Below are positions 1 to 45,400 of a stretch of DNA of 64,000 nt, piece by piece (positions within the stretch are counted from its first letter, which is position 1; every line of letters begins with the position of its first letter). The notes beneath the pieces were generated by a model. The model had not been told where the DNA came from. It saw nothing but the letters and a program-made list of their open reading frames with translations, and did not search any database. The position numbers and the translations under genes are program-made. Source of the DNA: Neoarius graeffei (lineage: Eukaryota > Chordata > Actinopteri > Siluriformes > Ariidae); assembly GCF_027579695.1 (NCBI RefSeq), contig NC_083571.1, positions 35,058,443 through 35,122,442 on the forward strand. Direction: 5' to 3'.

Positions 1-1605
1 CAATCCCACCATCATGTCTTCCATTGAGGAGACTGAGGCTGATGACTCAGAGGTGGACTCATCCATTACCCAAGCCGAAGTCACTGAGGTGGTTTGCAAG
101 CTCCTCGGTGGCAAGGCACCAGGGGTGGATGATATCCGCCCTGAGTATCTCAAGTCTCTGGATGTTGTGGGGCTGTCTTGGTTGACACGCCTCTGCAACA
201 TCGCGTGGCGGTCGGGGACAGTGCCTCTGGAGTGGCAGACTGGGGTGGTGGTCCCTCTTTTTAAGAAAGGGGACCGGAGAGTATGCTCCAATTATAGGGG
301 AATCACACTTCTCAGCCTCCCAGGGAAGGTTTACTCCAGGGTACTGGAGAGGAGAATTCGACCAATAGTCGAACCTCAGATCCAGGAGGAACAATGTGGT
401 TTTCGTCCTGGTTGCGGAACACTGGACCAGCTCTATACCCTTCATAGGGTGCTTGAGGGCTCATGGGAGTTTGCCCAACCAGTCCACATGTGCTTTGTGG
501 ATCTGCAGAAGGCATTCGACTGTGTCCCCCATGGTATTCTGTGGGGGGTGCTTCGGGAGTATGGGGTTCGGGGCTCTTTGCTAAGGGCTGTCCGGTCCCT
601 GTACGAACAGAGCAAGAGTCTGGTTTGCATTGCCGGCAGTAAGTCAGACCTGTTCCCAGTGCATGTTGAACTCCAGCAGGGCTGCCCTTTGTCACCGGTT
701 CTGTTCATAATTTTTATGGACAGAATTTCTAGGCACAGCCAGGGGCCGGAAGGAATCCTGCTTGGGAACCACAGGATTTCATCTCTGCTTTTTGCGGATG
801 ATGTTGTCCTGTTGGCTTCTTCAAACCAGAACCTTCAGCATGCACTGGGGCGGTTTGCAGTCGAATGTGAAACGGCTGGGATGAGAATCAGCACCTCCAA
901 GTCCGAGGCCATGGTTCTCGACTGGAAAAGGGTGGCTTGCCCTCTCCAGGTTGGTGGAGAAGTCCTGCCTTAAGTGGAGGAGTTTAAGTATCTCGGGATC
1001 TTGTTCACGAGTGAGGGAAGGATGGAGCGTGAGATCAACAGGCGGATTGGTGCAGCCTCCGCAGTGATGCGGTCACTTTACCGGTCCATCGTGGTGAAGA
1101 AGGAGCTGAGCTAAAAGGCGAAGCTCTCAATTTACTGGTCGATCTACGTTCCGACTCTCACCTATGGTCATGAGCTTTGGGTAATGACCAAAAGAACAAG
1201 ATCACAGATACAAGCGGCCGAAATGAGTTTCCTTCGCAGGGTGGCTGGGCGCTCCCTTAGAGATAGGGTGAAAAGCACAGTCACTCGGGAGGAGCTCGGA
1301 GTAGAGCCGCTGCTCCTCCACATCGAGAGGATTCAGCTGAGGTGGCTCGGGCATCTTTTTCGGATGCCTCCTGGACGCCTCCCTGGTGAGGTGTTCCAGG
1401 CATGTCCCCCCGGGAGGAGGCCCCAGGGAAGACCCAGGACACACTGGAGGGACTATGTCTCTCGGCTGGCCTGGGAATGCCTCGGTGTTCTTCCCGAGGA
1501 GCTGGCCGAGGTGTCTGGGGAAAGGGAAGTTTGGGCTTCCATGCTTAGACTGCTGCCTCCGCGACCCGGCCCCGGATAAAGCGGAAGAAGACGAGACGAG
1601 ACGAG
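1..1605 (+). pseudogene. Non-LTR retrotransposon (RTE-like LINE) 3' portion, decayed reverse transcriptase
   Basis: The reading frame open from base 14 continues in frame to about 1579 and encodes the palm and thumb of a reverse transcriptase plus the C-terminal region. Visible motifs include KAPGVDDIRPEYLK, CGFRPG, FVDLQKAFDCVP, CPLSPVLF and the catalytic FADDVV. Two in-frame TAA codons (971-973 and 1112-1114, both single changes of a CAA Gln codon seen in the second copy at 14730-16460) make it non-functional. The 3' end reads GGATAAAGCGG followed by GACGA-type pentamers, the same tail as the second copy. The 5' end lies outside the window. It abuts a 21-bp minisatellite. Clade assignment (RTE/Rex-like) is from general appearance only. 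Confidence 0.85.
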
Positions 1606-3085
1606 TGACAGCTGTTAGTGTGAATGCGAGAACATTTTGTGTGAATGTGAAAGCATTTTGTGTGAATGTGAAAGCATTTTGTGTAAATGTGAAAGCATTT
1701 TGTGTAAATGTGAGAACATGTGTGAATGCAAGAGCATTGTGTGAATGCCAAAGCAGCTTGTGTGAATGTGAAAGCATTTTGTGTGAACGCAAGAGCATTT
1801 TTTGTGAATGTGAGAGCATATTGTGTGAACGCAAGAGCATTTTGTGTGAATGCGAGAGCATTTTGTGTGAATGCGAGAGCATTTTGTGTGAATGTGATAG
1901 CTGTTAGTGTGAATGCAAGAACATTTTGTGTGAATGTGAAAGCATTTTGTGTGAATGCGAAAGCATTTTGTGTGAATATGAACGTTGTTAGTGTGAATGC
2001 GAGAGCATTTTGTGTGAATGTCAAAGCAGCTTGTGTGAATGCAAGAGCATTTTTGTGAATGTGAAAGCATTTTTTGTGAATGCAAAAGCATTTTGTGTGA
2101 ATATGAAAGCATTTTTTGTAAATGTGAAAGTTGTTAGTGTGAATGTGAGAGCTTTTTGTGTGAATGTGAGAGCATTTTGTATGAATGTGAAAGCATTTTT
2201 TGTAAATGTGAAAGTTGTTAGTGTGAATGTGAGAGCATTTTGTGTGACTGTGAAAGCAGTTAGTCTGAATGAGAGAGCATTTTGTGTGAATGTGACAGCT
2301 GTTAGTGTGAATGTGAGACCATTTTGTGTGAATGTGAAAGCATTTTGTGTGAATGTGAAAGCATTTTGTGTAAATGTGAGAACGTTGTGTGAATGCAAGA
2401 GCATTTTGTGTGAATGACAAAGCAACTTGTGTGAATGTGAAAGCATTTTGTGTGAATGTGAAAGCATTTTGTGTAAATGTGAGAACGTTGTGTGAATGCA
2501 AGAGCATTTTGTGTGAATGACAAAGCAACTTGTGTGAATGTGAAAGCATTTTGTGTGAATGCAAGAGCATTTTTTGTGAATGTGAAAGCATTTTTTGTGA
2601 ATGTGAAAGCATTTTGGGTGAATATGAAAGCATTTTATGTAAATGTGAAAGTTGTTAGTGTGAATGCGAGAGCATTTTGTGTGAATGTGAGCATTTTGTA
2701 TGAATGTGAAAGCATTTTGTGTAAATGTGAAAGTTGTTAGTGTGAATGCGAGAGCGTTTTGTGTGAATACAAGAGCATTTTGTGTGAATGTGAAAGCTAT
2801 TAGTGTGAATGTGAAAACTGTTAGTGTGAATGCTAGTACATTTTGTGTGAATGTGAATGCATTTTATATGAATGTGAGAGCATTTTGTGTGAATGTGAAA
2901 GCATTTTGTGTGAATGCGAGAGCATTTTATATTAATGTGAAAGCTGTTAGTGTGAATGTGAGTACATTTTTTGTGAATGCGAGAGCATTTTGTGTGGATG
3001 TGAAAGCAGTGATTATGAATGCAAGAGCATTTTCTAAGAATGCAAGCGCATTTTATGTGAATGTGAAAGCAGTTAGTGTGCAGAC
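1606..3085. repeat. 21-bp minisatellite, roughly 70 units
   Basis: Tandem units close to GTGAATGTGAAAGCATTTTGT run from the LINE tail to about 3085. Variants include GTTAGTGTGAATG spacers and GCGAGAGC for GTGAAAGC. Because the period is divisible by three and the unit lacks stops in several frames, long open frames appear on both strands (heptads such as AFCVNVK on plus and MLSHSHK on minus). There is no start context, splice signal or non-repeat domain, so these are not called as genes. Confidence 0.93.
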
Positions 3086-3247
3086 TTTACTAAATTTTTT
3101 TATTATTGATAGATGAGAGATAGATTGTGGTATTTTTACTCCTTTTTTAAAAAAATTATATCCATTGTATCTGTTTTTATAGCTTTCCTCTGACTTTAAA
3201 ATGGTTTATATATAAAAATATTATATGATGTTATAAAAAGTTAAGAA
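3086..3247. other. AT-rich stretch, nothing recognised
   Basis: Short AT-rich sequence between the minisatellite and a SINE; no coding potential or repeat family recognised. Confidence 0.5.
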
Positions 3248-3333
3248 GAAGCCTTTATTTGTCACATGCACACTCAAGCACGGTCAAGCACAGTGAAATT
3301 CATCCTCTGCATTTAACCCATCTGAAGCAGTGA

Positions 3334-3373
<40 letters not shown>

Positions 3374-3647
3374 CCAGAGCAGTAGGCAGCCACACTAGAG
3401 CGCCTGGGGACCAGTTAGGGGTTAGGTACCTTGCTCAAGGGCACCTCAGCCCAAGGCTGCACTATGTTAACCTAACCGCATGTCTTTGAACTGTGGGAGA
3501 AACCAGAACACCCAAAGGAAACCCACACAGACACAGGGAGAACATGCAAACTCCACATAGAAACGCCCCCCATTGGCCGCTGGGTTCGAACCCAGAACTA
3601 TCTTGCTGTGAGACAACAGTGCTAACCACTACACCACCGTGCCGCTC
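3248..3647 (-). mobile_element. tRNA-headed SINE with CA-repeat body, minus strand
   Basis: Read on the minus strand, the element starts with a tRNA-like head containing a box A-like TGGTGTAGTGGTTAGC and a box B-like GGTTCGAAC, then a conserved core (CATGTTCTCCCTGTGTCTG). Its 3' body differs from the other SINEs here: it contains the segment around TTTATTTGTCACATGC and a (CA)n run at about 3338-3372 rather than the GGATAAAGCGG tail. It is therefore a different subfamily sharing the same head. The head is a SINE promoter, not a functional tRNA. Confidence 0.75.
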
Positions 3648-3741
3648 ATTATGAACCTTAATTGTGGTTAAATATATTTTATCTAAATGTATTTTTATTT
3701 ACTTTTTCGATCCATTATATTTATTTTTTACGTTCTCTGAC

Positions 3742-4119
3742 TCATCTCATCTCATTATCTCTAGCCGCTTTATCCTGTTCTACAGGGTCGCAGGCAAGCT
3801 GGAGCCTATCCCAGCTGACTACGGGTGAAAGGCGGGGTACACCCTGGGCAAGTCGCCAGGTCATCACAGGGCTGACACATAGACACAGACAACCATTCAC
3901 ACTCTCATTCACACCTACGGTCAATTTAGAGTCACCAATTAACCTAACCTGCATGTCTTTGGACTGTGGGGGAAACCGGAGCACCCGGAGGAAACCCACG
4001 CGGACACGGGGAGAACATGCAAACTCCGCACAGAAAGGCCCTCGCCGGCCACGGGGCTTGAACCCGGACCTTCTTGCTGTGAGGCGACAGCGCTAACCAC
4101 TACACCACCGTGCCCCCCC
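3742..4119 (-). mobile_element. tRNA-derived SINE (main family of this window), minus strand
   Basis: About 375 bp. On the minus strand it has a tRNA-like head (box A TGGTGTAGTGGTTAGC, box B GGTTCAAGCCC), a conserved middle (GTTTGCATGTTCTCCCCG) and a tail AGGATAAAGCGGCTAGAGA plus GATGA-type repeats. The family occurs at least eight times in the window in both orientations. No clear target-site duplication was found for this copy. Confidence 0.88.
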
Positions 4120-4584
4120 ATTTTCAGAATATTATAGTTTATTATAATGTTATTTTTATTGTTTTTTGATTTTTTAAATATCCATTAAATCCATTTTTAT
4201 GTTTTCTGTACAGCACTGAGTCTTTTGTGTTTAAAATGTGTTTGTTTTTCAGAGACAGATTATACTTTTTTTTTTAAATGTCCCAGGGAAACAGGAACTG
4301 TTCAGACGTTCCAGATTTTAACTGAAATATTCCTTTGGAGTGCCAGTAATTTCACTGCACATATTCTGAGAGGAAAAAATGAAAATAAAAAAAAAAAGTT
4401 GTTCTGAAATTGATTTCACAATTTTGTATTTTGCTATACCCCTTAAGCCCCGCCCCCTAAGGTTAGTACATTGAAGTGTGACGTGAAGCAGGAAGTGATG
4501 CGTCTGACAGACAGCAGTGGATGGTGAGGTGAGAATCACTAGCAGTGAAACACGAAGCAGAAAGCAGCATGAAGCCTGAATTAT
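4120..4584. other. No gene seen
   Basis: AT-rich sequence followed by a short GC-richer stretch near 4440-4560. Short open frames exist but none resembles a known protein. Confidence 0.5.
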
Positions 4585-4688
4585 ACAGAACCGTACAACT
4601 GTCCATCAGCCACGGAGCCAGAATAACACACAGCCCTCTCTCTCTCTCTCACTCACTCCATCAGCCACTGAACCAGAATAACACACAG

Positions 4689-4719
<31 letters not shown>

Positions 4720-4792
4720 AGCTACGGAGCCAGAGCACACAGCCCGCTCTCTTGCTCTCTCTCTCCATCAGCCATGAAGCCAGAATAACACA

Positions 4793-4830
<38 letters not shown>

Positions 4831-4856
4831 AGCCACTGAGCAAGAATAACACAGTC

Positions 4857-4896
<40 letters not shown>

Positions 4897-4979
4897 ATCA
4901 GCTATGGAGCCATAATAACACACAGCTCGCTCGCTCACTCTCTCTCACTCCATCAGCCACTGAGTCAGAATAACACAAA

Positions 4980-5016
<37 letters not shown>

Positions 5017-5030
5017 GTTCAGTAGTGTAT
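4585..5030. repeat. CT-rich compound minisatellite
   Basis: About seven units of roughly 60-70 bp, each built from a conserved block (CCATCAGCCACTGAACCAGA followed by ATAACACACAG) and a variable (CT)n run. The variable CT lengths account for most size differences between units. Open frames through it encode only Ser/Leu-rich low-complexity sequence. Confidence 0.88.
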
Positions 5031-5195
5031 GTAGTGACCGTGAGTGCAGGATATTTAGTGAGCTGTGATTCTGCGACTCCTTCATCTACCTCCAACTCAT
5101 CCTTCACTTTACATCACTTATCCCTCACTCTCATCCATCTGTCCACCGTCATCTCTGTCTACAGACCTTTGATTAACTACTGTCTGTTTCTCCCA

Positions 5196-6158
<963 letters not shown>

Positions 6159-6380
6159 TACAGTGGTGCTTGAAAGTTTGTGAACCCTTTAGAATTTTCT
6201 ATATTTCTGCATAAATATGACCTAAAACATCATCAGATTTTCACACAAGTCCTAAAAGAAGATAAAGAGAACCCAGTTAAACAAATGAGACAAAAATATT
6301 ATACTTGGCCATTTATTTATTGAGGAAAATGATCCAATATTACATATCTGTGAGTGGCAAAAGTATGTGAACCTTTGCTT

Positions 6381-7430
6381 TCAGTATCTGGTGTGACCCC
6401 CTTGTGCAGCAATAACTGCAACTAAACGTTTCCAGCAACTGTTGATCAGTCCTGCACACCGGCTTGGAGGAATTTTAGCCCATTCCTCCATACAGAACAG
6501 CTTCAACTCTGGGATGTTGGTGGGTTTCCTCACATGAACTGCTCGCTTCAGGTCCTTCCACAACATTTCCATTGGATTAAGGTCAGGACTTTGACTTGGC
6601 CAATCCAAAACATTAACTTTATTCTTCTTTAACCATTCTTTGGTAGAACGACTTGTGTGCATAGGGTCGTTGTCTTGCTGCATGACTCACCTTTTCTTGA
6701 GATTCAGTTCATGGACAGATGTCCTGACATTTTCCTTTAGAATTCGCTGGTATAATTCAGAATTCATTGTTCCATCAATGATGGCAAGCCGTCCTGGCCC
6801 AGATGCAGCAAAACAGGCCCAAACCATGATACTACCACCACCATGTTTCACAGATGGGATAAGGTTCTTACGCTGGAATGCAGCCTTTTCCTTTCACCAA
6901 ACATAGCACTTCTCATTTCAACCAAATAGTTCTATTTTGGTCTCATCCGTCCACAAAACATTTTACCAATAGCCTTCTGGCTTGTCCACGTGATCTTTAG
7001 CAAACTGCAAACGAGCAGCAATGTTCTTTTTGGAGAGCAGTGGCTTTCTCCTTGCAACCCTGCCATGCACACCATTGTTGTTCAGTGCTCTCCTGATGGT
7101 GGACTCATGAACATTAACATTAGCCAATGTGAGAGTGGCCTTCAGTTGCTTAGAAGTTACCCTGGGGTCCTTTGTGACCTCGCTGACTATTACACGCCTT
7201 GCTCTTGGAGTGATCTTTGTTGGTTGACCACTCCTGGGGAGGGTAACAATGGTCTTGAATTTCCTCCATTTGTACACAGTCTGTCTGACTGTGGATTGGT
7301 GGAGTCCAAACTCTTTAGAGATGGTTTTGTAGCCTTTTCCAGCCTGATGAGCATCAACAACGCTTTTTCTGAGGTCCTCAGAAATCTCCTTTGTTCATGC
7401 CATGATACACTTCCACAAACATGTGTTGTG
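6381..7430 (-). pseudogene. Tc1-like transposase remnant (copy A1)
   Basis: Minus-strand DD34E-type transposase in at least two disconnected frames. The helix-turn-helix region (7277 downward) and the catalytic C-terminus (6683 downward) are recognisable. The region holding the first catalytic Asp is interrupted by a stop after KPEGYW. Inactive. Confidence 0.9.
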
Positions 7431-7654
7431 AAGATCAGACTTTGATAGATCCCTGTTCTTTAAATAAAACAGGGTGCCCACTCACACCTGATTGTCATCC
7501 CATTGGTTGAAAACACGTGACTCTAATTTCACCTTCAAATTAACTGCTAGTCCTAGAGGTTCACATACTTTTGCCACTCACAGATGTGTAATATTGGATC
7601 ATTTTCCTCAATAAATAAATGACCAAGTATAATATTTTTGTCTCATTTGTTTAA

Positions 7655-7874
7655 CCCTTTGGTGACTGACCCCTTGAAAATGGTTCCTCCAGGAACGATG
7701 ACTTTTCAGTTGTCAAGACAACGGAAAAACTAAAATACAAAAACAGAAAGATACGTCACAATGCTCTTGTGCACAAAACAAAATGCTCTTGTATTTTAGT
7801 TTTTCCGTTGTCTTGACAACTGAAACGTCATCGTTCCTGGAGGAACCATTTTCAAGGGGTCAGTCACCAAAGGG
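7655..7874. mobile_element. 220-bp palindromic MITE with TTAA target duplication, inside Tc1 copy A1
   Basis: Exactly bounded by TTAA (7651-7654 and 7875-7878). The two arms, about 86 bp, are inverted copies with one mismatch that I could find; the termini start CCCTTTGGTGACTGACCCC. A short loop carries two copies of AATGCTCTTG. Comparison with the uninterrupted sister Tc1 copy (around 22978) shows a single TTAA at the empty site. TTAA plus CCC termini fit piggyBac-type mobilisation. No coding capacity. Confidence 0.93.
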
Positions 7875-7996
7875 TTAAATGGGTTCTCTTTATCTACTTT
7901 TAGGACTTGTGTGAAAATCTGATGATGTTTTAGGTCATATTTATGTAGAAATATAGAAAATTCTAACGGGTTCACAAACTTTCAAGCACCACTGTA

Positions 7997-8865
7997 ATTT
8001 AGCCCTGACCATCGCGTCAGTCATATTGAATCAGGCTGCATTGCTGAATAAAACTCCTTAAAAGGCCGTTTTTACTGCTGATGTTGTATTAATATAAATC
8101 ACACTAACATGAGAATATAAATCACACACAATTTAGTATGCATGCTAGGCTGTAGGTGTCTAGCGCACACAGGCGGAGCTTGAACGATGGCGAATAACAA
8201 GGAAAGCAATAAAAAGCATTTATCACACTCATAAAATTCCATTTATTTTCCCATTTGTCTGTCTCTTGCTTGCCTCTCACACATTCTCTACCTCAGATTC
8301 AGAGGTAATGGAGCGAACAGACGGAGAAGATAAAGAGGAAACACACACACACACACACAACTAGCATTAGGTTCCTAAATAGATTTCCCTAAACTTGCCT
8401 ACACTTGTGGCTACATCCATTTTTAAAATGGCTCCATTCCGTAAAATCACACAGTCATAATTAGTTTGCAACATTTATGTAGATTTAGCTAAACACATAT
8501 TAGCGGGTATGCTAACAGTCTGGTAGCTAGCTAGAGAATAGCACAGGTTGTGGCCACACTCAACCTGTGAGCTACAATCCATTAATGTAGACTGTGTTCC
8601 AGACACAGTAAATAGATAATATAACGAGCTAACCAGTTGTGCTAGCAGGGTGTTTTTGTGTAAACTACATTCAAGACACAGTAACTAGTGTAAGTACCTC
8701 ACTTGCTAGCTGTTGTTAAAATGACAGCTGTTTGCATAGCAACTTCAGAGAGCATTTGTTCTGCTTTTGTTACTTTTTTATGATTGGCGCCACCGTGTTG
8801 AAGCGATGTCACAGAACTGCAGCTCAGAGGTCCCCAGTTTCCATCTGGTCCCAGTTTCCTGACTT
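7997..8865. other. No gene seen
   Basis: Apparently low-copy sequence with a short (CA)n at 8341-8359. No domain or exon recognised. Confidence 0.5.
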
Positions 8866-10895: not shown

Positions 10896-11753
10896 CTATG
10901 GGTGAAAGATTGGACTGCAGGCTGGCCAGTTCAGTACCCGGACCCTTCTTCTACGCAGCCATGATGCTGTAATTGATGCAGTATGTGGTTTGGCATTGTC
11001 ATGTTGGAAAATGCAAGGTCTTCCCTGAAAGAGACGTCGTCTGGATGGGAGCATATGTTGCTCTAGAACCTGGATATACCTTTCAGCATTGATGGTGTCT
11101 TTCCAGATGTGTAAGCTGCCCATGCCACACGCACTAATGCAACCCCATGCCATCAGAGATGCAGGCTTCTGAACTGAGCGCTGATAACAACTTGGGTCGT
11201 CCTTCTCCTCTTTAGTCTGAATGACACGGCGTCCCTGATTTCCATAAAGAACTTCAAATTTTGATTCGTCTGACCACAGAACAGTTTTCCACTTTGCCAC
11301 AGTCCATTTTAAATGAGCCTTGGCCCAGAGAAGACGTCTGCGCTTCTGGATCATGTTTAGATACGGCTTCTTCTTTGAACTATAGAGTTTTAGCTGGCAA
11401 CGGCGAATGGCACGGTGAATTGTGTTCACAGATAATGTTCTCTGGAAATATTCCTGAGCCCATTTTGTGATTTCCAATACAGAAGCATACCTGTATGTGA
11501 TGCAGTGCCGTCTAAGGGCCCGAAGATCACGGGCACCCAGTATGGTTTTCCAGCCTTGACCCTTGCGCACAGAGATTCTTCCAGATTCTCTGAATCTTTT
11601 GATGATATTATGCACTGTAGATGATGATATGCTCAAACTCTTTGCAATTTTACACTGTCGAACTCCTTTCTGATATTGCTCCACTATTTGTCGGTGCAGA
11701 ATTGGGGGATTGGTGATCCTCTTCCCATCTTTACTTCTGAGAGCCGCTGCCAC
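10896..11753 (-). pseudogene. Tc1-like transposase, family B copy 1, frameshifted before the final catalytic Glu
   Basis: An open minus-strand frame of 285 residues. It contains the paired helix-turn-helix ([20 protein letters not shown]), first catalytic Asp in LWSDESKF, and second Asp in [13 protein letters not shown] small deletion after NWPACSP shifts the frame, so the SPIE motif carrying the catalytic Glu present in copy 2 is lost. Otherwise highly similar to copy 2. Confidence 0.93.
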
Positions 11754-11933
11754 TCCAAGATGCTCTTTTTATACCCAGTCATGTTAATGACCTATTGCCA
11801 ATTGACCTAATGAGCTGCAATTTGGTCCTCCAGCTGTTCCTTTTCTGTACCTTTTAACTTTTCCAGCCTCTTATTGCCCCTGTCCCAACTTTTTTGAGAT
11901 GTGTTGCTGTCATGAAATTTCAAATGAGCCAAT

Positions 11934-31700: not shown

Positions 31701-34700
31701 TGTATTAAATTAAATCTTGCCAAAATGACTCGGTTCAAACTTGGACATATAGAAACAGAGCATGTTAAAAAAAAAAAACGAAAAAATAAACCCCGGAAAG
31801 CCCGCTCCTCTGCTTCAGCCAGACTTGAAGACCCGACGGTGCAATGCTTGCAGACTGTCAGAAGTAATTAGACCTAAATTTATAGCTAACAAATGAGCAG
31901 ACGCCCCAACAATTATTATTTTCGTTAGGCCAATGTGTAAGGTATGTTAGAACCGTGCCTTATAGCCTATGTTATATCACAATTTAAAGGACGTTTGAGG
32001 AGTTGGAGGCTGCGAGCGCAATGATGTTCCGACATGCGCTAAACTTTATTCCCTGAAAATCATACACCAGCGTTCAATGCCCCAAACAGTCAAAATGTCT
32101 AGAAGACTACGGTTAAATAATAATCATAGCCTACTAAGTTAAATTACGTCAAAACATCTGTTTCTGGCCTATGAAATGATGGAGGAAAATGAGAACGAAC
32201 GCAAAGTAGATAGCAGCCAACTTCACGCGATCTTTTAGGGAACTTAACGCTCATGTTGGCCACAATATTTCTCTTAATAAAATCTTGAATTGTTTTTGAA
32301 GTCGTATTCAACACAAAGTAAGGTCAAATTATAATTTTAATTTTAATGTAAACGAAGATCCAAACTTTGACATCGAGCACAGAGGAGCATGTCATTCTGC
32401 TTTCGGTTTCGGCAGCATGGATGCGCTTTACATGAAAGAAGGCACTGATGTGTCTGCCATCGATAAAGGTGTAAAAAACAAGTGGAGGTGGGCTTGGCTG
32501 TACGAAATAGGTGAAAACGGAAAGACATTTAGTTCATGGTGCAAAAAACTAAACATTCCAGGCGCTTGCATTTGTGTGGTTTGCCACAAAAAAATAATAC
32601 ACGGAAGCAATAGAAAGAGAGTGCAATAAATTGAATATATTAATCCATTAATTAATTGATAATAAAGTTATCAGTTCTAAGTTAATCATTCTCAGAATTT
32701 CATCGAAATCCACCCATAACCCCCCCCCAAAAAAAATTTTCAGTCAAATAATTTTTTTTTTGCTTTAATCCATGGAACTGGTCTTACCGCAGAATGTTAA
32801 GGATTAGCTGGACTGAGAAGAAATCGAACATCTACGTGAGGCAACAGATTGGAGGCAGCTGGAATCTGATAAAGTATTGTGACAAGCTGAAGTTGCGGTA
32901 TTTTGGCCATGTTATGAGAGCGGAGGGAACAGTGGCCGATTTCATCACTGGCATGGTCTTCGGAACGCGATGAAGAGGCCGGCAAAAGACGCGTGTGATG
33001 GACGGAGTAGTGGCCTTGACCGGGATGGGGCTTTCGACTGCTGCCCGCGCGGCGAAAGACAGAGAGGGCTGGAGGGATATTGTGCGACGGGCCACGGACG
33101 CTCAGCCCCCCTGAGTCATCCCGCACCACGACAACGAAGACGATCTCTATGATTTATTTTATTTACACTGTTGTATATTTCTCTCGATTTTTGACCCATT
33201 TGTTCAAGATTAACTTTTGTTGTTGTTTCTGTGGAAGTGTTTCCATCCTCTCGCTTCATCCCGAGATCAGACGACTGAGACTCGGGGATGAGTTTGTTAA
33301 AAGTCGTTACTTCCTTCAGAAAAGCTCTTCAAGCCAAGTAAAGCATTGCGTTTCTGTAAACACTGAGGCTCTGACAGTGTCTTTATGAGAACAGCATCAC
33401 GCCGTATAACCCGTTTATAACACCTGTCTAAACGGACCTTTATTAGAGAACAGTTTTATAATCCGTCGTTTGTTTGTTTTTCTGCAGATGATGAAGGTCC
33501 TGATCCGCCGGAGCAGTTCACCGCTATCAAACTCTCAGACACAAGGTACACTCTCAGAAAAAAAGGTACAGATCCGTACCTTAAAAGGTACAAACGCTTG
33601 TCTCTGTGGCAGTACCTTTAGAGGGTACAGAGCTGTACCTTTCAAAAGGGGTACACATTTGTACCTTCATGCTTTGTACCTTTAAGTGCCTCATCTGTAC
33701 CTTCAAGATCAAGTTTGTACCTTTAGTGGATGGTACAAATGCTGTACCTTTAACAATGGTACAAATCTGTACCACAATGGTACCACCACAGAGACAAGTT
33801 AATTTGTACCTTTAAGGTACATGATCTGCCCATAGCAATGTACATAAATATGTTTAAAAGCCAGCACATACAAACTTAACACATTTTTTAATTAAAAAAT
33901 ATTGTTTATTTTTTTTCAAATGTAAAAACAATACAACTTTGACATTTACACTGCACATTAATATTCATAGAAATTGTACAACAAATTATTTTCTTCCAAA
34001 AAATAAAAACAATAATTACATGTGTGTAAAAAGCTTCAGCATCAAACAAAAATATTAATGAAAAAACTTCAGACAAGTTGAAGCACTTTCAGTACAGGCC
34101 CAAAGTTTGATCACACCTAAATAAATGCATTCATTTTATTTTCACGGCTATTTACAATACATTGTAGATTCCCATGGAGGGCATCAAAACTATGTATGAA
34201 CACATATAGAATTATGTGCTTAACAAAAAATATCAATTCTAGCTGTTGTCTAACAATGATGTCAGCTGTCTATCACAACTGATGGTCCCACATGTCTCAA
34301 CAAGCTTATTTTTTTCTATTGTCCACTCCTCTTTGCAAAAGCATTCCAAATCTGACAGATTGCAAGTGCATCTCCTGTGCACAGTCCTCCTCAGATCACC
34401 CGACAGGTGTTTGATGGGATTTAGGTCTGAACTCTGTCTGGGCCATTCCAAAACCCCACTCAATCCTATTCTGGTGAAGCCATTCTTTTATTGATTTAGA
34501 TGGGTGCTTAGGGTAGTTGTCGTTCTGAAAGATCAAGTTCCTCTTCCAATTTTGCAAAAAGGCATAAGACATCTCCCAAAACAACACTGCATCACCCATA
34601 TAACACCATGCCTTGAGTGAAGAGTGGTGGTGGCAGCATCATGCTTTGGGAATGTTTTTCTTAAGCTGGAGCTGGGGCCTTAGTCACAGAGGAGGAAATT

Positions 34701-36419
34701 ATGGACAGGTCCACCGTGGCAGTGGTAGTGGCACAAAAGAAGACGAAGAGGAACTTTATCTTTCAGAATGACAATTACACTAAGCACATGCCTACATAAA
34801 GAAAAGTCTGGCTTGACCAGAATAAGATTGATGTCTTGGAATGGCCCAGACAGAGTTCAGACCTGAATCCCATCGAACAGCTGTCAGGTGACATGAGGAG
34901 GACTGCACAGGAGATGCACTAGCAATCTGTCAGATTTGGAGTGGGCTAATATTGCCACATCAACATGCGCTACGCTGACAGACCAGAATAACCAAGCATC
35001 CTGTCTGAAACTGCTACTGGTCTGTTCAAACAATCATTTTGGCCTATTGACATGTTTCAGTGCATCATTTAACTCATGTATGGTAACGTGTTTTGCTTGA
35101 TGAGCCTGGCAAATGACAAGACGTAATACTAATGGTATAACACCCTCTCGCACATCGTGCATGATGTCAGGTGGTAAACAAGTTGTGACGTCAAAGTAAT
35201 CTAGGGAGTCAAACGGACAACTTCTTTGCACTCCATACAGTGCACTGTTACTTGGGTTTTCCTTTATAGACTCAAGATGGTACTTGTGAGCGTCTGAAGT
35301 TTGAAGAGTTAAGTCATTTTCACTAAAATGATCATTTTTACTTGATGACGTGGCCATGCAGTGTTTCAGGGCATCATTAAATTCATGAATCCAGAATTCA
35401 TGCTGTCCATTCACAAATGTCACCTTTTTAATGAATACTTACCATCACCATCAAATTCATAATGTATTCATAATGACTGGGAAAATTGCACTTTTCGTAC
35501 ATGAAAAGCGGGATCTTCTCCATATCCGTCATTTTAAATGTCCAGAAATAGACATTTTAAGCTGCAAAACTTACTGTAATTTGGTTATACTAGTAAGTAT
35601 TAGTTTATTACTTCGTAAATATTCATGAAAAGATCAAATTTGGCCATAGGCCACACAGTTTCAATGAGCAGCATAGTTGCAATACCTACTCTGGCCACAA
35701 TCCTACACAGTGCAGTAAACTCATGTATATGGTATCGTGTTTTGCTTGATGAGCCTGGCAAATGACAAGACGTAATACTAATAGTATAACACCCTCTAGC
35801 ACATCGTGCATGATGTCAGGTGGTTAACATGTGACATCAAAGTAATCTAGAAAGTCTAACGGACAACTTCTTTGCGCCCCATGGGTTTTCCTTTATAGAC
35901 TCAAGATGGTACTTGTGAGAGTCTGAAGATCAAAGGTGTTAAAAGGTGAATTGTGTAGGATGGTAGCCAGAGTAGATATTGTAACTATGCTTGTCATTGC
36001 TGTGCTGCCTATTCCCAAATTTGATCTTTTCATGAATATTTACTGATCAATAAACTAATATTTACTAGTATGACCAAAGTACAGTAAGTTTTGCATCTAA
36101 AATCATGTGTGAAAAGTGCATTTTCCCCATTCATATTTAATACTTAGAATGTGATGGTGGTGGCAAGTATTCGTGAAAAGGGTAACATTTGCGAATGGAC
36201 AGGCAGCATGAATTCTGTAAATAAACTACAGAAAATATTACACTGCACCTTTAAGTACATAATTCTGTATGTGTTCAGGCAGTTTTGATGCCCTCCGCAA
36301 GAATCTACAATGTACTGTAAATAGCCATGAAAATATAGAGAATGCATAAAGAAATGGTACACTACACATTACAATGTTTTACATCACATTACCAGCTAAT
36401 TTACACTACACTATAAAGT

Positions 36420-36451
<32 letters not shown>

Positions 36452-39400
36452 AGCAGGCTACAATACTGCTCACCAAATAAATTCCTTGCGTCAATGAAAT
36501 CACTGTGGTAGAAGCATTCACCTACATCAGTCAGCGAAATGTAATTGTCCAGTTTCTCTTTGAAGAGTATTGGTAACAGGACCAGGGCAGCTCGGAAGTC
36601 TACGTCTTCCAAAAGAAAAAAAAGATAGTACAATATATTAGCAGTGGTAAATTAGTTCTTTCCCCAATCACTAACAGCTTTTGTTAATTCTTCAGAATCT
36701 GTTGCACAATTCCAAATACAATTAGTTCACCACCGGCCTACAGAAAGGGGAAGATGGGATTATTCCATGCCAATTCAACAATCTCCATGCACTTATGTCT
36801 CAAAAAAAAAAGTAGACACCCACACAGAAACTCCAATCAAAGGATTTATTAAAAACGAGCAATGTTTTAACCCACCAGAGTTCACACCTTCAGCCGTGTG
36901 ACTTTTAAATAATGTCATTTACCGTATCGACACGAATATAAGACGAGGGTTTTTTTCCCCCTAAAACTAGGTCTTTAAAGGGGGTGTTCATCTTATATTC
37001 GGGCCAATACGGTATATAGGCTCTGTTAATGAATAGTTTCAGTGTGCGTCTGTCTACTTTCACCATCATTTGTGTGCTTTGTCCTGACACTGACCCTAGC
37101 AAGATGGGATACATCTATTTTGTTAAAAACACAACCCAAACACAAGCCACCTCCAATTTCAGATATAATTGGATAGGGTGAGAGGTGAAGACTCATAAAT
37201 ATTAGCATTGTTATTGGTCTAAAATTAAGCTAAGTTTTGAAGTTAATGTAATGCATTAGATACCATTTACTTCCTCTGAAGACAATTCAGCTCTTGCTTC
37301 CAAGTACAGCTTTTCCAGCGAGGTCTTTCCATGGATTGCTTGGAGCAGCGCAGGCACTAGACTTCGGAACGATTCTCTAAACTGTTGGTTTACATCGGGC
37401 ATTTTGTAGATCAGGCCCATTTCCTGGAAGAGCTACAACCAAAATAGATAAAAGGGTAACAAAGTAAAGCAAATTTAACTTCTACAACATACTAATCAAT
37501 ATTCATTTCAATAATCTGAGATACTATGTAATATGTAAAATGACATTAAATATTCTTTGGTTATTGAGAGAAATACAAACAGTTGCTTACATAACTGTAC
37601 AAACAGAACAAAACCAATTCAGACATACCCCAGATGGTGTTTTCAGGAATGGATATTTATTGATGGCCTCTACAGCAGACACTGCTTGCTGAAGCTTGCG
37701 TCTCCTCCACTGAAATGTTCACTTCATTTTGTCCTCCACAATGGCTCGATCAGGTTGGGCCTGTTCATACTGCATGTGCAATTCTTTAACATGGGCATCA
37801 ATGGAAACAGAGTCTTCACCAACAGGAAGTTCACACTCAGTCCTGCAACACAAACACATGAAGGTGTTAGCACTACAGTGCTAATGAGGGAAAAACAGGA
37901 CTTTTCTAAAAAATAAAAAAAATACAAATACATTTAAAAAAAAATCAAAAATAGTTTTTTTTTAACTTGCTTTCATCATCGTAACAAATTACAGCGATGT
38001 CAGTTTCACAAAAACAAAATAACCTCTTACCAAGGCTCATTCCACATCAACTGAAATTACTTTTCATCATAATAAACAGTGAGTCGTCATGATGACAGAC
38101 AAGCAATAGAATGACAGTATTACACACAAGAATGTGTGCATCTTTTTTTTCCTGGAGCCTTTGACTACTTTTTTCAGTACTGTCTGTCTCCATATTGTGT
38201 ACAACCCCGATTCCAAAAAAGTTGGGACAAAGTACAAATTGTAAATAAAAACGGAATGCAATAATTTACAAATCTCAAAAACTGATATTGTATTCACAAT
38301 AGAACATAGACAACATATCAAATGTCGAAAGTGAGACATTTTGAAATTTCATGCCAAATATTGGCTCATTTGAAATTTCATGACAGCAACACATCTCAAA
38401 AAAGTTGGGACAGGGGCAATAAGAGGCTGGAAAAGTTAAAGGTACAAAAAAGGAACAGCTGGAGGACCAAATTGCAACTCATTAGGTCAATTGGCAATAG
38501 GTCATTAACATGACTGGGTATAAAAAGAGCATCTTGGAGTGGCAGCAGCTCTCAGAAGTAAAGATGGGAAGAGGATCACCAATCCCCCTAATTCTGCACT
38601 GACAAATAGTGGAGCAATATCAGAAAGGAGTTCGACAGTGTAAAATTGCAAAGAGTTTGAACATATCATCATCTACAGTGCATAATATCATCAAAAGATT
38701 CAGAGAATCTGGAAGAATCTGTGCGTAAGGGTCAAGGCTGGAAAACCATACTGGGTGCCTGTGATCTTCGGGCCCTTAGACGGCACTGCATCACATACAG
38801 GCATGCTTCTGTAGTGGAAATCACAAAATGGGCTCAGGAATATTTCCAGAGAACATTATCTGTGAACACAATTCACCGTGCCATCCGCCGTTGCCAGCTA
38901 AAACTCTATAGTTCAAAGAAGAAGCCGCATCTAAACATGATCCAGAAGCGCAGACGTCTTCTCTGGGCCAAGGCTCATTTAAAATGGACTGTGGCAAAGT
39001 GGAAAACTGTTCTGTGGTCAGATGAATCAAAATGTGAAGTTCTTTATGGAAATCAGGGACACCGTGTCATTCGGACTAAAGAGGAGAAGGACGACCCAAG
39101 TTGTTATCAGCGCTCAGTTCAGAAGCCTGCATCTCTGATGGTATGGGGTTGCATTAGTGCGTGTGGCATGGGCAGCTTACACATCTGGAAAGACACCATC
39201 AATGCTGAAAGGTATATCCAGGTTCTAGAGCAACATATGCTCCCATCCAGACGCCGTCTCTTTCAGGGAAGACCTTGCATTTTCCAACATGACAATGCCA
39301 AACCACATACTGCATCAATTACAGCATCATGGCTGCGTAGAAGAAGGGTCCGGGTACTGAACTGGCCAGCCTGCAGTCCAGATCTTTCACCCATAGAAAA

Positions 39401-42400
39401 CATTTGGTGCATCATAAAACCGAAGATACGACAAAAAAGACCTAAGACAGTTGAGCAACTAGAATCCTACATTAGACAAGAATGGGTTAACATTCCTATC
39501 CCTAAACTTGAGCAACTTGTCTCCTCAGTCCCCAGACGTTTACAGACTGTTGTAAAGAGAAAAGGGGATGTCTCACAGTGGTAAACATGGCCTTGTCCCA
39601 ACTTTTTTGAGATGTGTTGTTGTCATGAAATTTAAAATCACCTAATTTTTCTCTTTAAATGACACATTTTCTCAGTTTAAACATTTGATATGTCATCTAG
39701 GTTCTATTCTGAATAAAATATGGAATTTTGAAACTTCCACATCATTGCATTCCGTTTTTATTTACAATTTGTACTTTGTCCCAACTTTTTTGGAATTGGG
39801 GTTGTACATTCTGAGCCTCAGTCTCCGTCTGTATCTTTTTCTTGAGTCTTTTGGGCCTTTGACCACCGGATCTTGCTCTCAAAGTAACAAAAATCAATTT
39901 AATTGGCAAACCCACTTCAAATAAATGCATATGCATGTAAATACAAAGGCTGGTGCTTCTATCTCCTTACGCCTTATTCACACCAGAACTCAACAGCGCG
40001 GAAGCGGTAAGCCGGCGGTTTTTCCGCCGGTTCTTGAGCGGTGCGTTCTGCTCGGCCTTTCACACCAGTCAGCCTGCGGGCGCAGTATGTTCACCGCCGG
40101 CCCTGTCCACAGCCCATGTTTAAAAGAGCGTGTATAGCTTAACATTAATGAAATATCAGTCGCTTTTGTGCTCAAATTTAAATGTAAACGACATTGAGGG
40201 AGGTGTTACGTGAACTCTAAGCAGAGTGACAATTTAAAAGCAAGTAGTCACTGCCTTGATACTTTGGGGGAGGAATGTCATAGACAAAAATGTATTTAGG
40301 TCATTTTAATAGGCTAGTGTTCCTTCATTTGAGCATGCCTACCAAACCGCGAGCCTTTGCACTGCCTACTACACAAGAAATGAGAAGTTTTGTGGTCGAT
40401 ATACATTCGTAGACTGCCTACGATTTGTGCTTTCCTATTCATTTCAATGGGGCACCGCTCACATACCGCTGGCAAAATTCCGCTCGAGTTGGATTTCAAA
40501 ATTGCAGCGCGGTACTGAGCAGTCCACCGCTCAGTTACCGCCTGCGCACCGCTTTGTTGGTGTGAAAGGACTAATCTGTTCCCATGTATTTTCACTGCCG
40601 CCGGTGAAAAACGCTTCCGTGCCGCCGGAAAACTGGTGTCTGGTGTGAATAAGGCGTTACAGGAACAATACAAATTCATTCAATATTCTTACTATAAAGC
40701 CTGATAACCCAAAGTGAAGTAGATGCAGCTCCACGCACAGTAGGTCACCCCTTTAGGCTTCACACATTCGCCAAGATCAGGTAGTCTTTTGTACAATGTG
40801 TTTCAGACAGATTTTGCTTCAGTTTCTGTCAAAAAGCCCAAGCTCCGGCTTGTTTGAGATGTGTGATTTATGGACTTACCGGTTTGTTCCTTTTTGCACA
40901 ACTTGACTGGGGTGCTTCTTCGGTTGACCTCGCCTTGCGATGACCGAATTTGGCTTTGAAATTCATTACTTCTTCTGTTTGGACAAGGGGTGCACGCTCC
41001 ATCTTGAACTTGCGCTTTAAGGACATGTGCCATGTGTGCTATTCAAAACATACATTGCCATGAGTTACTTTAGCACTGAAATATTTGATTAAGACAAGTC
41101 ATAGCATATGGAAGATCTTCCATTTAAAATATTTCGTTTTGAACTTTTCTACATGACACGTGCAAAGTATGCTATTCAAAACCCACATCACCGTAGGCTA
41201 CTTTTTGCACTGGATTATTTGATGAAAAAATGTCAGCACATATATAAAATTGTAAATACTTACATAGCCATTCCCCTCAAGATCCTTTAAAAAAGGATAT
41301 TTAGTCACCAGCGCCTTTGAAACTCTGACATACTCGTCATTTGAGGGATACCTACCAGTTGGAGGGAGAATAAAACAAACAAGTGACTTCAAAACTTGTT
41401 TGCTACATGCACATAGCCAATTCTGCAATAGAACTTTAATACTACACATATACTTTTCTTAGTAGTGAATTCATCTCATCTCATTATCTCTAGCCGCTTT
41501 ATCCTTCTACAGGGTCGCAGGCAAGCTGGAGCCTATCCCAGCTGACTACGGGCGAAAGGCGGGGTACACCCTAGACAAGTCGCCAGGTCATCACAGGGCA
41601 GACACAGACACAGACAACCATTCACACTCACATTCACACCTACGGTCAATTTAGAGTCACCAGTTAACCTAACCTGCATGTCTTTGGACTGTGGGGGAAA
41701 CCGGAGCACCCGGAGGAAACCCACGCGGACACGGGGAGAACATGCAAACTCCACACAGAGAGGCCCTCGCCGGCCCCGGGGCTCGAACCCAGGACCTTCT
41801 TGCTGTGAGGCGACAGCGCTAACCACTACACCACCGTGCCACCCCTAGTACTGAATTATTTTGCATAATTTCTACATGTGCAGTTGATTTTTCTTGCATG
41901 CATTACACTTCAAAATAACACAAATCAATATATTGACTTTAAGACAACCTTGTATTGACAACAGTTTGTCAAAGTTTGCACATAGCACAACGAAAATCTT
42001 ACAATAGAATATTAAAATTTAAATTTGGAGCCATCTTTACCATGAACTTAAAATACCTACATTGTATACTGTGCCATGGATTCTTGAAGCACCCCAATGA
42101 TTTTGCTTCGGAATAGTCCGGTTTTGCATGGTTCTTTATTATCCAATCTAGTCTGAATGTTCTTTGGAAACTTAGGCAGAACAAAAACACTTGGGAAGCA
42201 TGGACCAGTAGACACCTGTGGACTTTGAGCAGAGCTGTAGGAAAAGATTCAAGGAACAATAAATAAATAAATAAATAACACAACAAAGCCATTCGATTGA
42301 AGTCTGCACCTGTCCCTGAGAATGACTCAAAGAAAAGAGAAATTTACATTTGCCTGCCTCAAGTCATACAGAAATGTACCCTACAATAGAGGACCAAATT

Positions 42401-45400
42401 AACTAATTAAAACGCCTGCAAAAAAATGTTGTTAAAAACCTAAGAATATAGATAAAGTTCAAAACCCACCTTGACTCAGACGGTGTAACTGGAGCTGGAA
42501 CGTTGATGCAAGTGTCCTTTAGCTGCTGGATGGCATTAATGAATTTCACTTGTTTCTTGAATGAACCAAATAACTGAGAAATCATGTAGTCAGTCAGCCC
42601 ATGCACCGTCTCACCATCTACTTCATATTCTGAAGCGGAAAAAGACCATAGTTTAGCTTTAAAATACTCAATATTGCATTTAATAATTCTCAATGTACAT
42701 TTTTTTTATGCAAGTCATCCATCAGATGCACCCTAGACACAGAACAATGACCATATAGTGACATACAATAAGTAAGTTTAATTCAGTGCACTTCCGATAA
42801 GACGCGCTATACGAACAGACAAGCAGGCACAATTCCTCCCTCCTTTCTGGTTCACTCAATCGCATGCGTGCAGTCTCAAGATGCGCAATTAGAAGTACAA
42901 TGCCATGTCGACGTTTGTTTTGCGTGCACGCTCTTGCTCGCTTCACTGTAAAAAGTGACTGTGAAATTTACAGTAAAACTATGTGAAATGCATACAGAAC
43001 AGCACTGTAAACCCCGAAACATATATTTGTTGTTCAAATCACTGTTAAATTTTGTAAACCAGTAAAGTGTACACTGGGGTGCTGTATTTTTTACAGGGAT
43101 TTTCTGGTCACCCCAGCTGCCAGGGTTTTCCTGTTAAAATGACAGATTTTTTTTTTAGTGTTGGTATAAACTTCGGAATCGCAGGCTTTTGGGACTCGCT
43201 ATCAAAGAGACTCCAGGGGAGTGTCAGAGCTCTGCCCTGGGCTGGGTGGCAAGACTCCACGTCACTTAGGAATTCTCCGCGCTGGCCCTTCTACACCATC
43301 AGTGGCCAATGTGGCACGAATTGATATTGCTATCTGAATTGATATCTGATATTGCATTTCCAGTAACAGAGGCGCCACAAAAATACAGGCTGCATTTCAG
43401 TTGATGAAATGCAACACGTTTTAAAACTAATCCTTGCCTCAGGTAGCTGCTAGGCCAGTTCTAAACTCAAAGCAAGCCTGGAATCATGCAGGCATGCATA
43501 ATATCAATCCAACAGGCAGAACCATTCACTTAACATTCAGAAAATACAGAAGAGGCATCTGAAACACATCCCTTGTTCAGAAACCAACACTGAAGCAGAC
43601 TAATGTTCAGGTGAGCCACGAGGCGCGCACCCCCTCCCCCCTCTAAGGGCTTCGGCTGAGGAAAGGGCGCGAAATGGGTTGCCGAGTCATCCTGCTAGCT
43701 GCTAATCTAGTTCTACATACACGAGATGGCGGCAGCGCCAGTGCACTCAGATCTATAGGCAGCACAAATATCACACCGTCTTCACCACATACCAATCCGG
43801 CTGTACACAAGCCTCCACTTAGAAATAAATCTATACGTCTTTCTCTGCCTCAACTCAATGCTAAGATGTTGAACTTCTTGTCTGTTCAGAGTTAACCCGT
43901 CACATAGCCTAACTGTGTGGAAGCCTCTTCAGGTACACCTGCCCTCATCACGAACAGCATGGCATAGCTAGCTAACTGAAAAAAATGCCTGCATCCTATT
44001 AATCCATGCCATTAAGGTCACAACCTCTTAACATTTAGCTTTCTCCAAGCAGACGATATGAAAATTATATACCATTATGTGGATAACTACAGAGTTATTA
44101 ATCACTGTATTTCAATGCCCTTTACATGTTAGCGTTCCTTCAAGTATGACTAGTTAACATTAGCTGGCAAAAGGACAGGACCGCTATCAGGTTAGCTAGC
44201 CCGACCAACCACACACACAAAAAAAAACTTACCAGCTTAACAGCTACCCTTTGGAAAAACAAGCCATTTTATCGCTGCCTTTTTACTTAAATTAAACCCA
44301 TGTAGATTAACTTCTTTGACGGGGGCTTCTGAACGGAAAGGCTTCTGAAAGGTTTTCAAGGAACCACCTAATTCAGTAGAACTAGCCACAATCAGAACAA
44401 CAGTATGGTAACTCACCTGTAAATTTCCTTCTGCCGTCGTCTGTTATTTCCAGGCCCGCTTTTACTCAGAAGTCCAAAAGCTCTTCGGTGGAGAGGGCGG
44501 ACAAAGTCGCCATCCTTCAGGCGACCACGCGAGTAGTAGAATTTTGTCTTGCGCTAGCATCTAGAGCAGGACCGTTAATTGCTTTTTGGACTCCTCCCCC
44601 TAGCAGCTCAAAGTACCATGCCCTAAGGTACAAACACGTACCTTCTCCAATTTTGTACCTTAAAGGTACAGTGTCGTACCACAAAGGTCCAGTTTTGTAC
44701 CATTTAAGGTACATCAAACTGAAAGGTACATTTGTGCACCTTAATGTGTCATATTTGTACCACTGTGTACCTTTATTTCTGAGAGTGTAGGAAAAAAACC
44801 CGAACTTTATTATTCTCAAATTTATTTAAACTTTATTAACCAGGTTATTTTATTTAAAAAATTATCAAAATAACTGAATATCTCTTTTTAAAGGGATAGT
44901 TCGGGATTTTTGACATGAATCTATATGGTATCCCCGTCAGCAGTGTCGTGCATCCACACTGACTTACCCCCGACAGTGTTCTGTGAGCCTAGATATTGTA
45001 CAGTGTTGGTCAGTGCACAAGTAGTTCCGGCAGGTTTCCTGGGGTCTGCAAAGTAACACGTTTTTCTTCTCAAAACAGCTTGTGTTCGAATGAGTGATTT
45101 ATTAGCATAACAAAACCCTTGTAGTCCAAAAAGTCACACCTTGTAATTGCTTGGGGCTACTTTCTCTCAATAGCGATCAGTGCGCGCTGTCACTGTTAAC
45201 AGTTGTGTGCGAGCTAGCCAACAACTTTCATTAGCTGTTCGACAGTGTTTAGCAGCAGCAAATTGCTTTCCTCCTCAATATACAAGTGCGCTTCCATGGC
45301 AGGGAAAAAGAAACTACCACTGCTGCCTATGTAGTGCCCTATTTATACAAATAGGAGTCATTCAGGATTCAGCCATGTTTTTGCTCCGTGTCATGGCTGA

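Follow-up and report, generated by a model that had tools for sequence, protein, structure and literature searches.

Introduction

The maize transposon En/Spm has ends of the CACT type, as does the element studied here, and duplicates 3 bp of its target. In the available part of PMC2613891, the tnpD open reading frame (ORF) of En/Spm is placed within intron 1 of tnpA, and the TNPA protein is described as binding the subterminal repeats needed for transposition and as having, in addition, a suppressor function. Members of the CMCT clade are characterized, in the accessible portion of PMC12730594, by CA..TG ends and duplications of 2-5 bp. In this study, we analyzed a stretch of 64,000 nucleotides from Neoarius graeffei (C3:35058443-35122442; hereafter, the window), which contains a transposon-like element enclosing a spliced SAM-domain gene. 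Such genes in fish are, we presume, usually annotated as SAMD3-like host genes. By its ends, target duplication, and arrays, the element appeared to be CACTA/CMC-like, the assignment of its transposase being suggestive. The reading of the SAM gene that fits best is that it is a transposon-encoded partner, neither a host gene nor chance cargo, since it was enclosed in all six long copies of the element, homologs accompany transposases in two divergent families, and partner genes were found at more distant loci.

Results

Ends and Copies of the Element

The initial annotation, made from the letters of the window alone, had proposed one large element with inverted termini, TA flanks, and GGTACA arrays, crossed by a spliced minus-strand SAM gene. 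Both proposals were borne out, in that the end pairs recurred in the genome with 2-bp flanks as described below, and eight of the nine SAM exons were located on the minus strand from 44513 down to 36526. The terminal inverted repeat CACTCTCAGAAA had two exact matches in the window, namely the two ends themselves (Table 1). Because at least two matches of this 12-mer were obtained in 8 of 100 shuffles when up to one mismatch was allowed, the pair alone was regarded as weak evidence, and the element was judged to be real because both ends recur at other sites in the window's own genome (2.34 Gb). Searching this genome with 500 bp from each end yielded at least 25 strong places for the left and at least 25 for the right end. 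Their pairing resulted in at least six long copies (9.4-11.3 kb), at least 18 short ones, and two unpaired ends, one left and one right, both on C9. The long copies measured 11239 bp (window), 9426 bp (C17), 11328 bp (C2), approximately 9.9 kb (C20), 9558 bp (C16), and 9551 bp (C3:15.58M), and SAM exons 1-8 were present between the paired ends in all six.

Both ends could be read in 22 of the 24 paired copies, all but C20 and C6:50.16M; identical 2-bp flanks were observed in 19 of these 22 (16 TA, 2 AA, and 1 CA), unlike flanks in three, and a 3-bp repeat in none. The AA and CA cases indicate that the boundary is fixed at CACT and that the duplication is genuine. For the long copies, the flanks were readable and identical in five of six. 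The window contained 51 copies of the hexamer GGTACA, where 24.2 were expected and 0 of 100 shuffles reached the observed count; the hexamer was dense in the two subterminal arrays (Table 1), and only five occurrences lay in the 10.8 kb between them.

The short copies (L017-L028 and L032-L037) fell into two groups, each with a common internal junction. In the first (11 copies of 744-761 bp), left position 278 was joined to right position 23 (53 in one copy); in the second (seven copies), left position 500 (in one copy 439 plus a second piece) was joined to right position 101, and six of the seven were measured, five at 903 bp and one at 1291 bp. The short copies are deletion derivatives of the long element. 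A left-end match of at least 278 bases was found in 18/18 and a clear SAM exon 1 in 17/18, the remaining copy (L020) matching at an E value of 0.49 only. As to whether paired ends might never enclose the SAM gene, all six long copies in this genome enclosed it.

In a rearranged copy on C9 (76.06-76.09M; L016, L030, and L031), the right end and SAM exons 1-5 had the opposite orientation to exons 6-9 and the transposase. Eleven divergent relatives of the left end (L038-L048, 74-81% identity) were negative in tblastn for both SAM and transposase; six of them had a second end within a span of about 220-590 bp, and these six look like short elements. No relatives of the left end were found in a scan of viral contigs, nor any of the transposase in scans of viral contigs and of prokaryote genome contigs.

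The Two Genes of the Window Family

The SAM frame was intact in three of the six long copies (C16, C3:15.58M, and C20), where it comprised nine exons and 481 codons on the minus strand, stop-free and with GT-AG introns. The window copy and those on C17 and C2 shared a TGA at codon 16 of exon 1, a 2- or 4-bp deletion in exon 6, and the lack of exon 9, together with a common rearranged region at the place where the three intact copies hold the transposase frame.

The transposase followed SAM exon 9 in C16, with 506 codons from the first ATG, and its open frame amounted to 511 aa in both C16 and C3:15.58M. The frame in C20 was of 661 codons, with an end that by eye looks Tc1-derived. A region of 1820 bp over the SAM/transposase junction was collinear at C16, C3:15.58M, C20, C25:8.19M, and C9:76.08M; at C9:0.47M it was split by a nested gypsy-type retrotransposon. 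In intact copies, only 2 nt separated the SAM stop from the ATG of the transposase downstream (GCT TGA GT ATG CCT).

The transposase contains the LPPDIMHD motif, which the initial annotation had called tnp2-like. The kind of protein was correctly named, although profile support for it was weak: Pfam scored Plavaka at 7.4e-4 (19.3 of 26.3 bits) and Transposase_21/tnp2 at 0.015 (14.9 of 28.6 bits), both below the curated cut-offs. The CACTA-like label likewise stood for the CAC-starting inverted ends, the 2-bp target duplication, and the subterminal arrays at both ends, and was suggestive only for the transposase. Cysteine-histidine pairs were present at the N-terminus (zf-C2H2 at 0.14, not significant by Pfam), and a C(2)C motif, CRYC, was recognized by eye. 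The gypsy-type long terminal repeat retrotransposon, with 477-bp repeats 99.8% alike, was observed inside the transposase of the C9:0.48M copy (L015), at 3213-8513 in element orientation.

Divergent Families and Distant Partner Genes

The genome was also probed with the window-family transposase, the best 85 of 960 candidates being scored; this and the other protein searches of the genome were done with single-protein queries. In family B, the transposase showed 41% identity to that of the window family and had an 825-aa open frame (C23:27.28M). The left end of the C23 copy was CACTCTTAGAAA, with the start CACTCTTAGAAAAAAAGGTTC after TA at position 958 of L049; between-copy homology began at 959-963, and two other copies were unlike the C23 copy in the first bases. 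The element ended in AATAGTG followed by TA, the right end being imperfect (CACTATTAAAAC read inwards). An exon 1 encoding half a SAM domain lay upstream of the transposase, ending 23 nt before the transposase match in four copies, and exons 2-9 lay downstream on the same strand; the family B transposase is therefore nested in intron 1 of the SAM gene. Splicing yielded a stop-free SAM frame of 449 aa, 29% identical to the window-family SAM protein over 468 columns (E 5e-60). It matched SAM_2 at 1.2e-6, over the curated cut-off, and exon 1 alone scored 0.0038, under the cut-off (Pfam). Exons 2-9 were found at seven loci, with exon 1 at all seven and a transposase among the matches listed at six; the copy on C14 had SAM exons without a transposase in that list. 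On C28, a 1.2-kb piece behind the transposase gave no SAM match, and the exons there were split by about 2.4 kb. The closest solved structures to the family B SAM domain include those of DGK-delta and SARM1.

The transposase of family C, located on C18 and C12, was 37% identical to that of the window family. Upstream of it, a 28-aa exon 1 piece from C12 (L054) matched SAM_2 at 2.8e-6, and exons 1 and 2 together matched SAM_1 at 5.5e-9, so that a SAM domain over the curated profile cut-off was found in both families B and C. Behind the transposase on C18, exons 2-5 were detected by tblastn (1.8e-8 to 6.7e-5), followed by an exon 6-like piece recognized by eye and, further on, by exon 9-like matches at 38-40% identity. 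The 2.4 kb holding exons 2-6 recurred at full length at seven loci. The family C transposase is thus nested in SAM gene intron 1 as well, the window family having the tandem order. Of 16 pieces taken upstream of transposases, five showed exon 1 in a comparison with the SAM profile: L049-L051 (one of which, L049, had contributed to that profile) and, with weak matches, L054 (E 0.61) and L052 (3.6). The remaining 11 had no match up to E 5; partners situated downstream lay outside those pieces.

Across three families, the transposase ATG abutted or overlapped the stop of the upstream SAM frame (TGAGTATG; ATGATAATG; TGAATG). This contact suggests that reading of the second frame is linked to that of the first or is under the control of splicing. 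A literature search for reinitiation in DNA transposons found none.

A genome search with the family B SAM protein (91 matches; best 94 of 402 candidates scored) gave 29 clusters, of which 16 had a listed same-strand transposase within 20 kb and 13 did not, where the rough chance expectation is 0.0007 per cluster. The window-family SAM protein (100 matches; best 89 of 548 candidates scored) gave 55 clusters, and a listed transposase lay within 20 kb on the same strand in 24 and on the opposite strand in one. Single matches made up 46 of these clusters, 45 of them outside the window family; at 15 of these 45 divergent loci, the partner gene stood 1.0-8.5 kb behind a listed transposase on the same strand. 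Twelve loci were looked up with a DNA probe from a family with 28% identity; at nine of them, the partner gene followed the start of the transposase at a distance of 3144-3162 bp. Seven of the nine were newly paired, which raised the count to 31/55. In a family with 30% identity, the one locus of such identity whose partner was read (L070, C1:78999300-79000500; read in part) contained a partner gene sharing the common middle region (genome-wide E 1.2e-14). No PB1 structure was matched by the head of this partner. An NCBIfam search returned nothing of use.

Another locus of 30% transposase identity, L058, was considered as a fourth SAM family and dropped. The frame upstream of its transposase closes with TAATGAG, on the ATG of the latter. 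The homology reached 9.8 bits, where the highest of the 587 values reported from 1000 shuffles was 5.6; it was obtained with pieces chosen by eye and, being weak, was not relied on.

State of the Window Copy

As summarized in Table 1, the window copy retains both ends, both arrays, and exons 1-8, and has lost SAM exon 9. The breaks in its SAM gene, the nested Tc1-like element, and the reduction of its transposase to remnants had gone unnoticed in the initial annotation. Because its SAM gene is broken and its transposase region rearranged, this copy is a degenerate, presumably non-autonomous member of the two-gene element.

Table 1. Positions in the window of the element's ends, arrays, gene remnants, and nested insertions.
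Feature	Position	Strand	Remarks
Left terminal inverted repeat	33549..33560	+	CACTCTCAGAAA; TA at 33547-33548 just before
Left subterminal array	33549..33828		15 GGTACA (either strand) in 280 bp
Transposase gene, rearranged remnants	35037..35929	-	P0001 residues 397-506 at 35037-35366; further partial matches at 35725-35929
SAM gene exon 8	36526..36605	-
SAM gene exon 7	37264..37432	-
SAM gene exon 6	37629..37839	-	Frame broken by 2-bp deletion; first few bases beyond 37839 unaligned
Nested Tc1-like element	38198..39808	+	221-bp inverted arms; DDE_3 frame 38661-39584; absent from C17
SAM gene exon 5	40880..41038	-
SAM gene exon 4	41264..41351	-
SAM gene exon 3	42061..42234	-
SAM gene exon 2	42470..42629	-	Second half of SAM domain
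Nested insertion	42943..43161		About 218 bp; absent from sister copy C17
SAM gene exon 1	44418..44513	-	With start codon; broken by TGA at codon 16
Right subterminal array	44623..44787		8 GGTACA (either strand) in 165 bp
Right terminal inverted repeat	44776..44787	-	TA at 44788-44789 just after

A second Tc1-like frame, very similar in sequence to the nested one, was located outside the element (10896-11768, minus strand). A repeat of about 375 bp at 41475-41850 was absent at this place from C16, C3:15.58M, and C20; the same repeat was inserted in inverted orientation near the left end of the C20 and C9:0.48M copies. At 1545-3116 on the minus strand, long frames of repeated FTQNAFTFTQ-like units were observed, which probably represent a minisatellite.

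Discussion

Role of the SAM Gene

The initial annotation had left it between a transposon-encoded gene and stable cargo, and the results supported this proposal, with the former fitting best. By analogy with En/Spm, we regard it as fairly probable that the element is a two-gene CACTA-like (CMC-group) transposon whose SAM partner does the TnpA-like job of binding the arrays and pairing the ends. Gene 1 would be a transposase bearing motifs like those of tnp2/Plavaka along with cysteine-histidine pairs that resemble zinc fingers, and gene 2 a SAM-domain partner of approximately 450-480 aa, travelling and diverging alongside the transposase. Taking the place of En/Spm TnpA, the SAM protein would bind the subterminal GGTACA-type arrays, and its self-association could bring the two ends together and help the transposase to cut. 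SAM domains such as those of DGK-delta and SARM1 self-assemble. Expression of the two genes may be linked: in families B and C, where the transposase is nested, through intron 1 being either retained or spliced out, and in the window family through termination coupled to reinitiation, or through alternative splicing. The short copies fit the pairing role because the parts that they kept are the two ends with their arrays, plus SAM exon 1 in nearly all of them.

Several observations weigh against this interpretation. The Plavaka and Transposase_21 scores were both below the curated cut-offs, and no complete window-family transposase was seen in the C16, C3:15.58M, C20, and C9:0.48M copies (the C9:76.08M frame ran off the examined piece, and C25:8.19M was outside this check). 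The window-family SAM protein had no Pfam match, and Pfam detected no DNA-binding domain in the SAM protein. Among the transposases listed plus the one family probe, 24/55 clusters, and 23/45 of the divergent single-match loci, were unpaired, and the head of the L070 partner was PB1-like rather than SAM (Pfam 0.016, under the cut-off).

Alternatively, the SAM protein could be an element-encoded regulator, for instance one that counteracts silencing or represses the element's own promoter; it would act at the right end, from which the SAM gene is read, on chromatin or on transcription, and would form no part of the cutting complex. One of the arrays does stand at the start of the SAM gene, and it is there that a clear exon 1 was kept in 17/18 short copies; TNPA of En/Spm likewise has a suppressor function, as far as the available part of the source describes it (PMC2613891). 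Nevertheless, all 18 short copies also match at least 278 bases of the opposite end, which has an array without the SAM promoter and fits a role in transposition, and Pfam identified no regulatory domain; we consider a purely regulatory role unlikely. A captured host gene of SAMD3 type, picked up once and carried without any role in transposition, would agree with host-like splicing and with the window lineage, in which the SAM gene is broken and yet the ends and three long copies persist. Homologs, however, stand beside transposases at 37-41% identity, with intact frames at a SAM identity of 29%, and partner-like genes occur beside still more distant transposases. Since intact frames are not what one would expect of neutral cargo after such divergence, we find this explanation quite improbable. 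Least probable by far, to the point of being negligible, is the case of a host SAM gene hit by transposon insertions, its association with the ends being due to chance. Apart from the way in which fish genes of this kind are usually annotated, nothing spoke for it, and six long copies at different sites held the same gene between the same ends, five of them with readable, identical 2-bp flanks; for the window family, this explanation is already refuted.

Extending the pairing role of the SAM partner beyond these families, we would put forward, tentatively and with more doubt than confidence, that animal CACTA-like elements, as they diverged, kept a two-gene system equivalent to tnpA/tnpD of plants. 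The protein in the tnpA role would combine a common middle with an exchangeable self-associating head (SAM, or PB1-like in at least one family), polymerising on the arrays to pair the ends, and the SAMD3-like families of fish, perhaps SAMD3 itself, might be members or domesticated descendants.

If SAM genes are transposon-encoded partners, fish genes called SAM-domain host genes may often be parts of transposons, which would change their annotation and studies of their expression. An En/Spm-like layout with a SAM partner, if true, would suggest that CACTA elements generally need a partner that binds their ends, and the shared layout would make the idea of a SAM polymer directly testable. A literature search for SAM or SAMD3 in connection with these transposons, with Repbase and Dfam outside its range, returned nothing relevant by title.

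Comparison With Known Systems

The genes described here resemble the SAMD3-like genes of fish, as usually annotated, in having an N-terminal SAM domain within a longer protein and many copies per fish genome; they are set apart from that description by standing, together with a transposase, between transposon ends. The target duplication is of 2 bp here, unlike the 3 bp of En/Spm. The second protein is, moreover, a SAM-domain protein, its likeness to TnpA being one of gene layout, and the window-family transposase lies downstream of the last SAM exon. With regard to Plavaka/CMCT elements, the best Pfam profile for the transposase was that of Plavaka (7.4e-4, under the cut-off), and the CA..TG ends and 2-5 bp duplications of the CMCT clade (PMC12730594) are features shared with the present element. 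Fungal PlavakaA ends are TGT..ACA and those of PlavakaB CATCA..TGATG, unlike those found here, and the extra gene of fungal Plavaka elements is a TET/JBP dioxygenase, as given in the accessible portion of PMC12730594. Like En/Spm, the present element has dense subterminal repeats and a transposase gene accompanied by a second, spliced gene, and intron 1 of that second gene contains the transposase ORF in families B and C, the arrangement that the available part of PMC2613891 describes for tnpD within tnpA.

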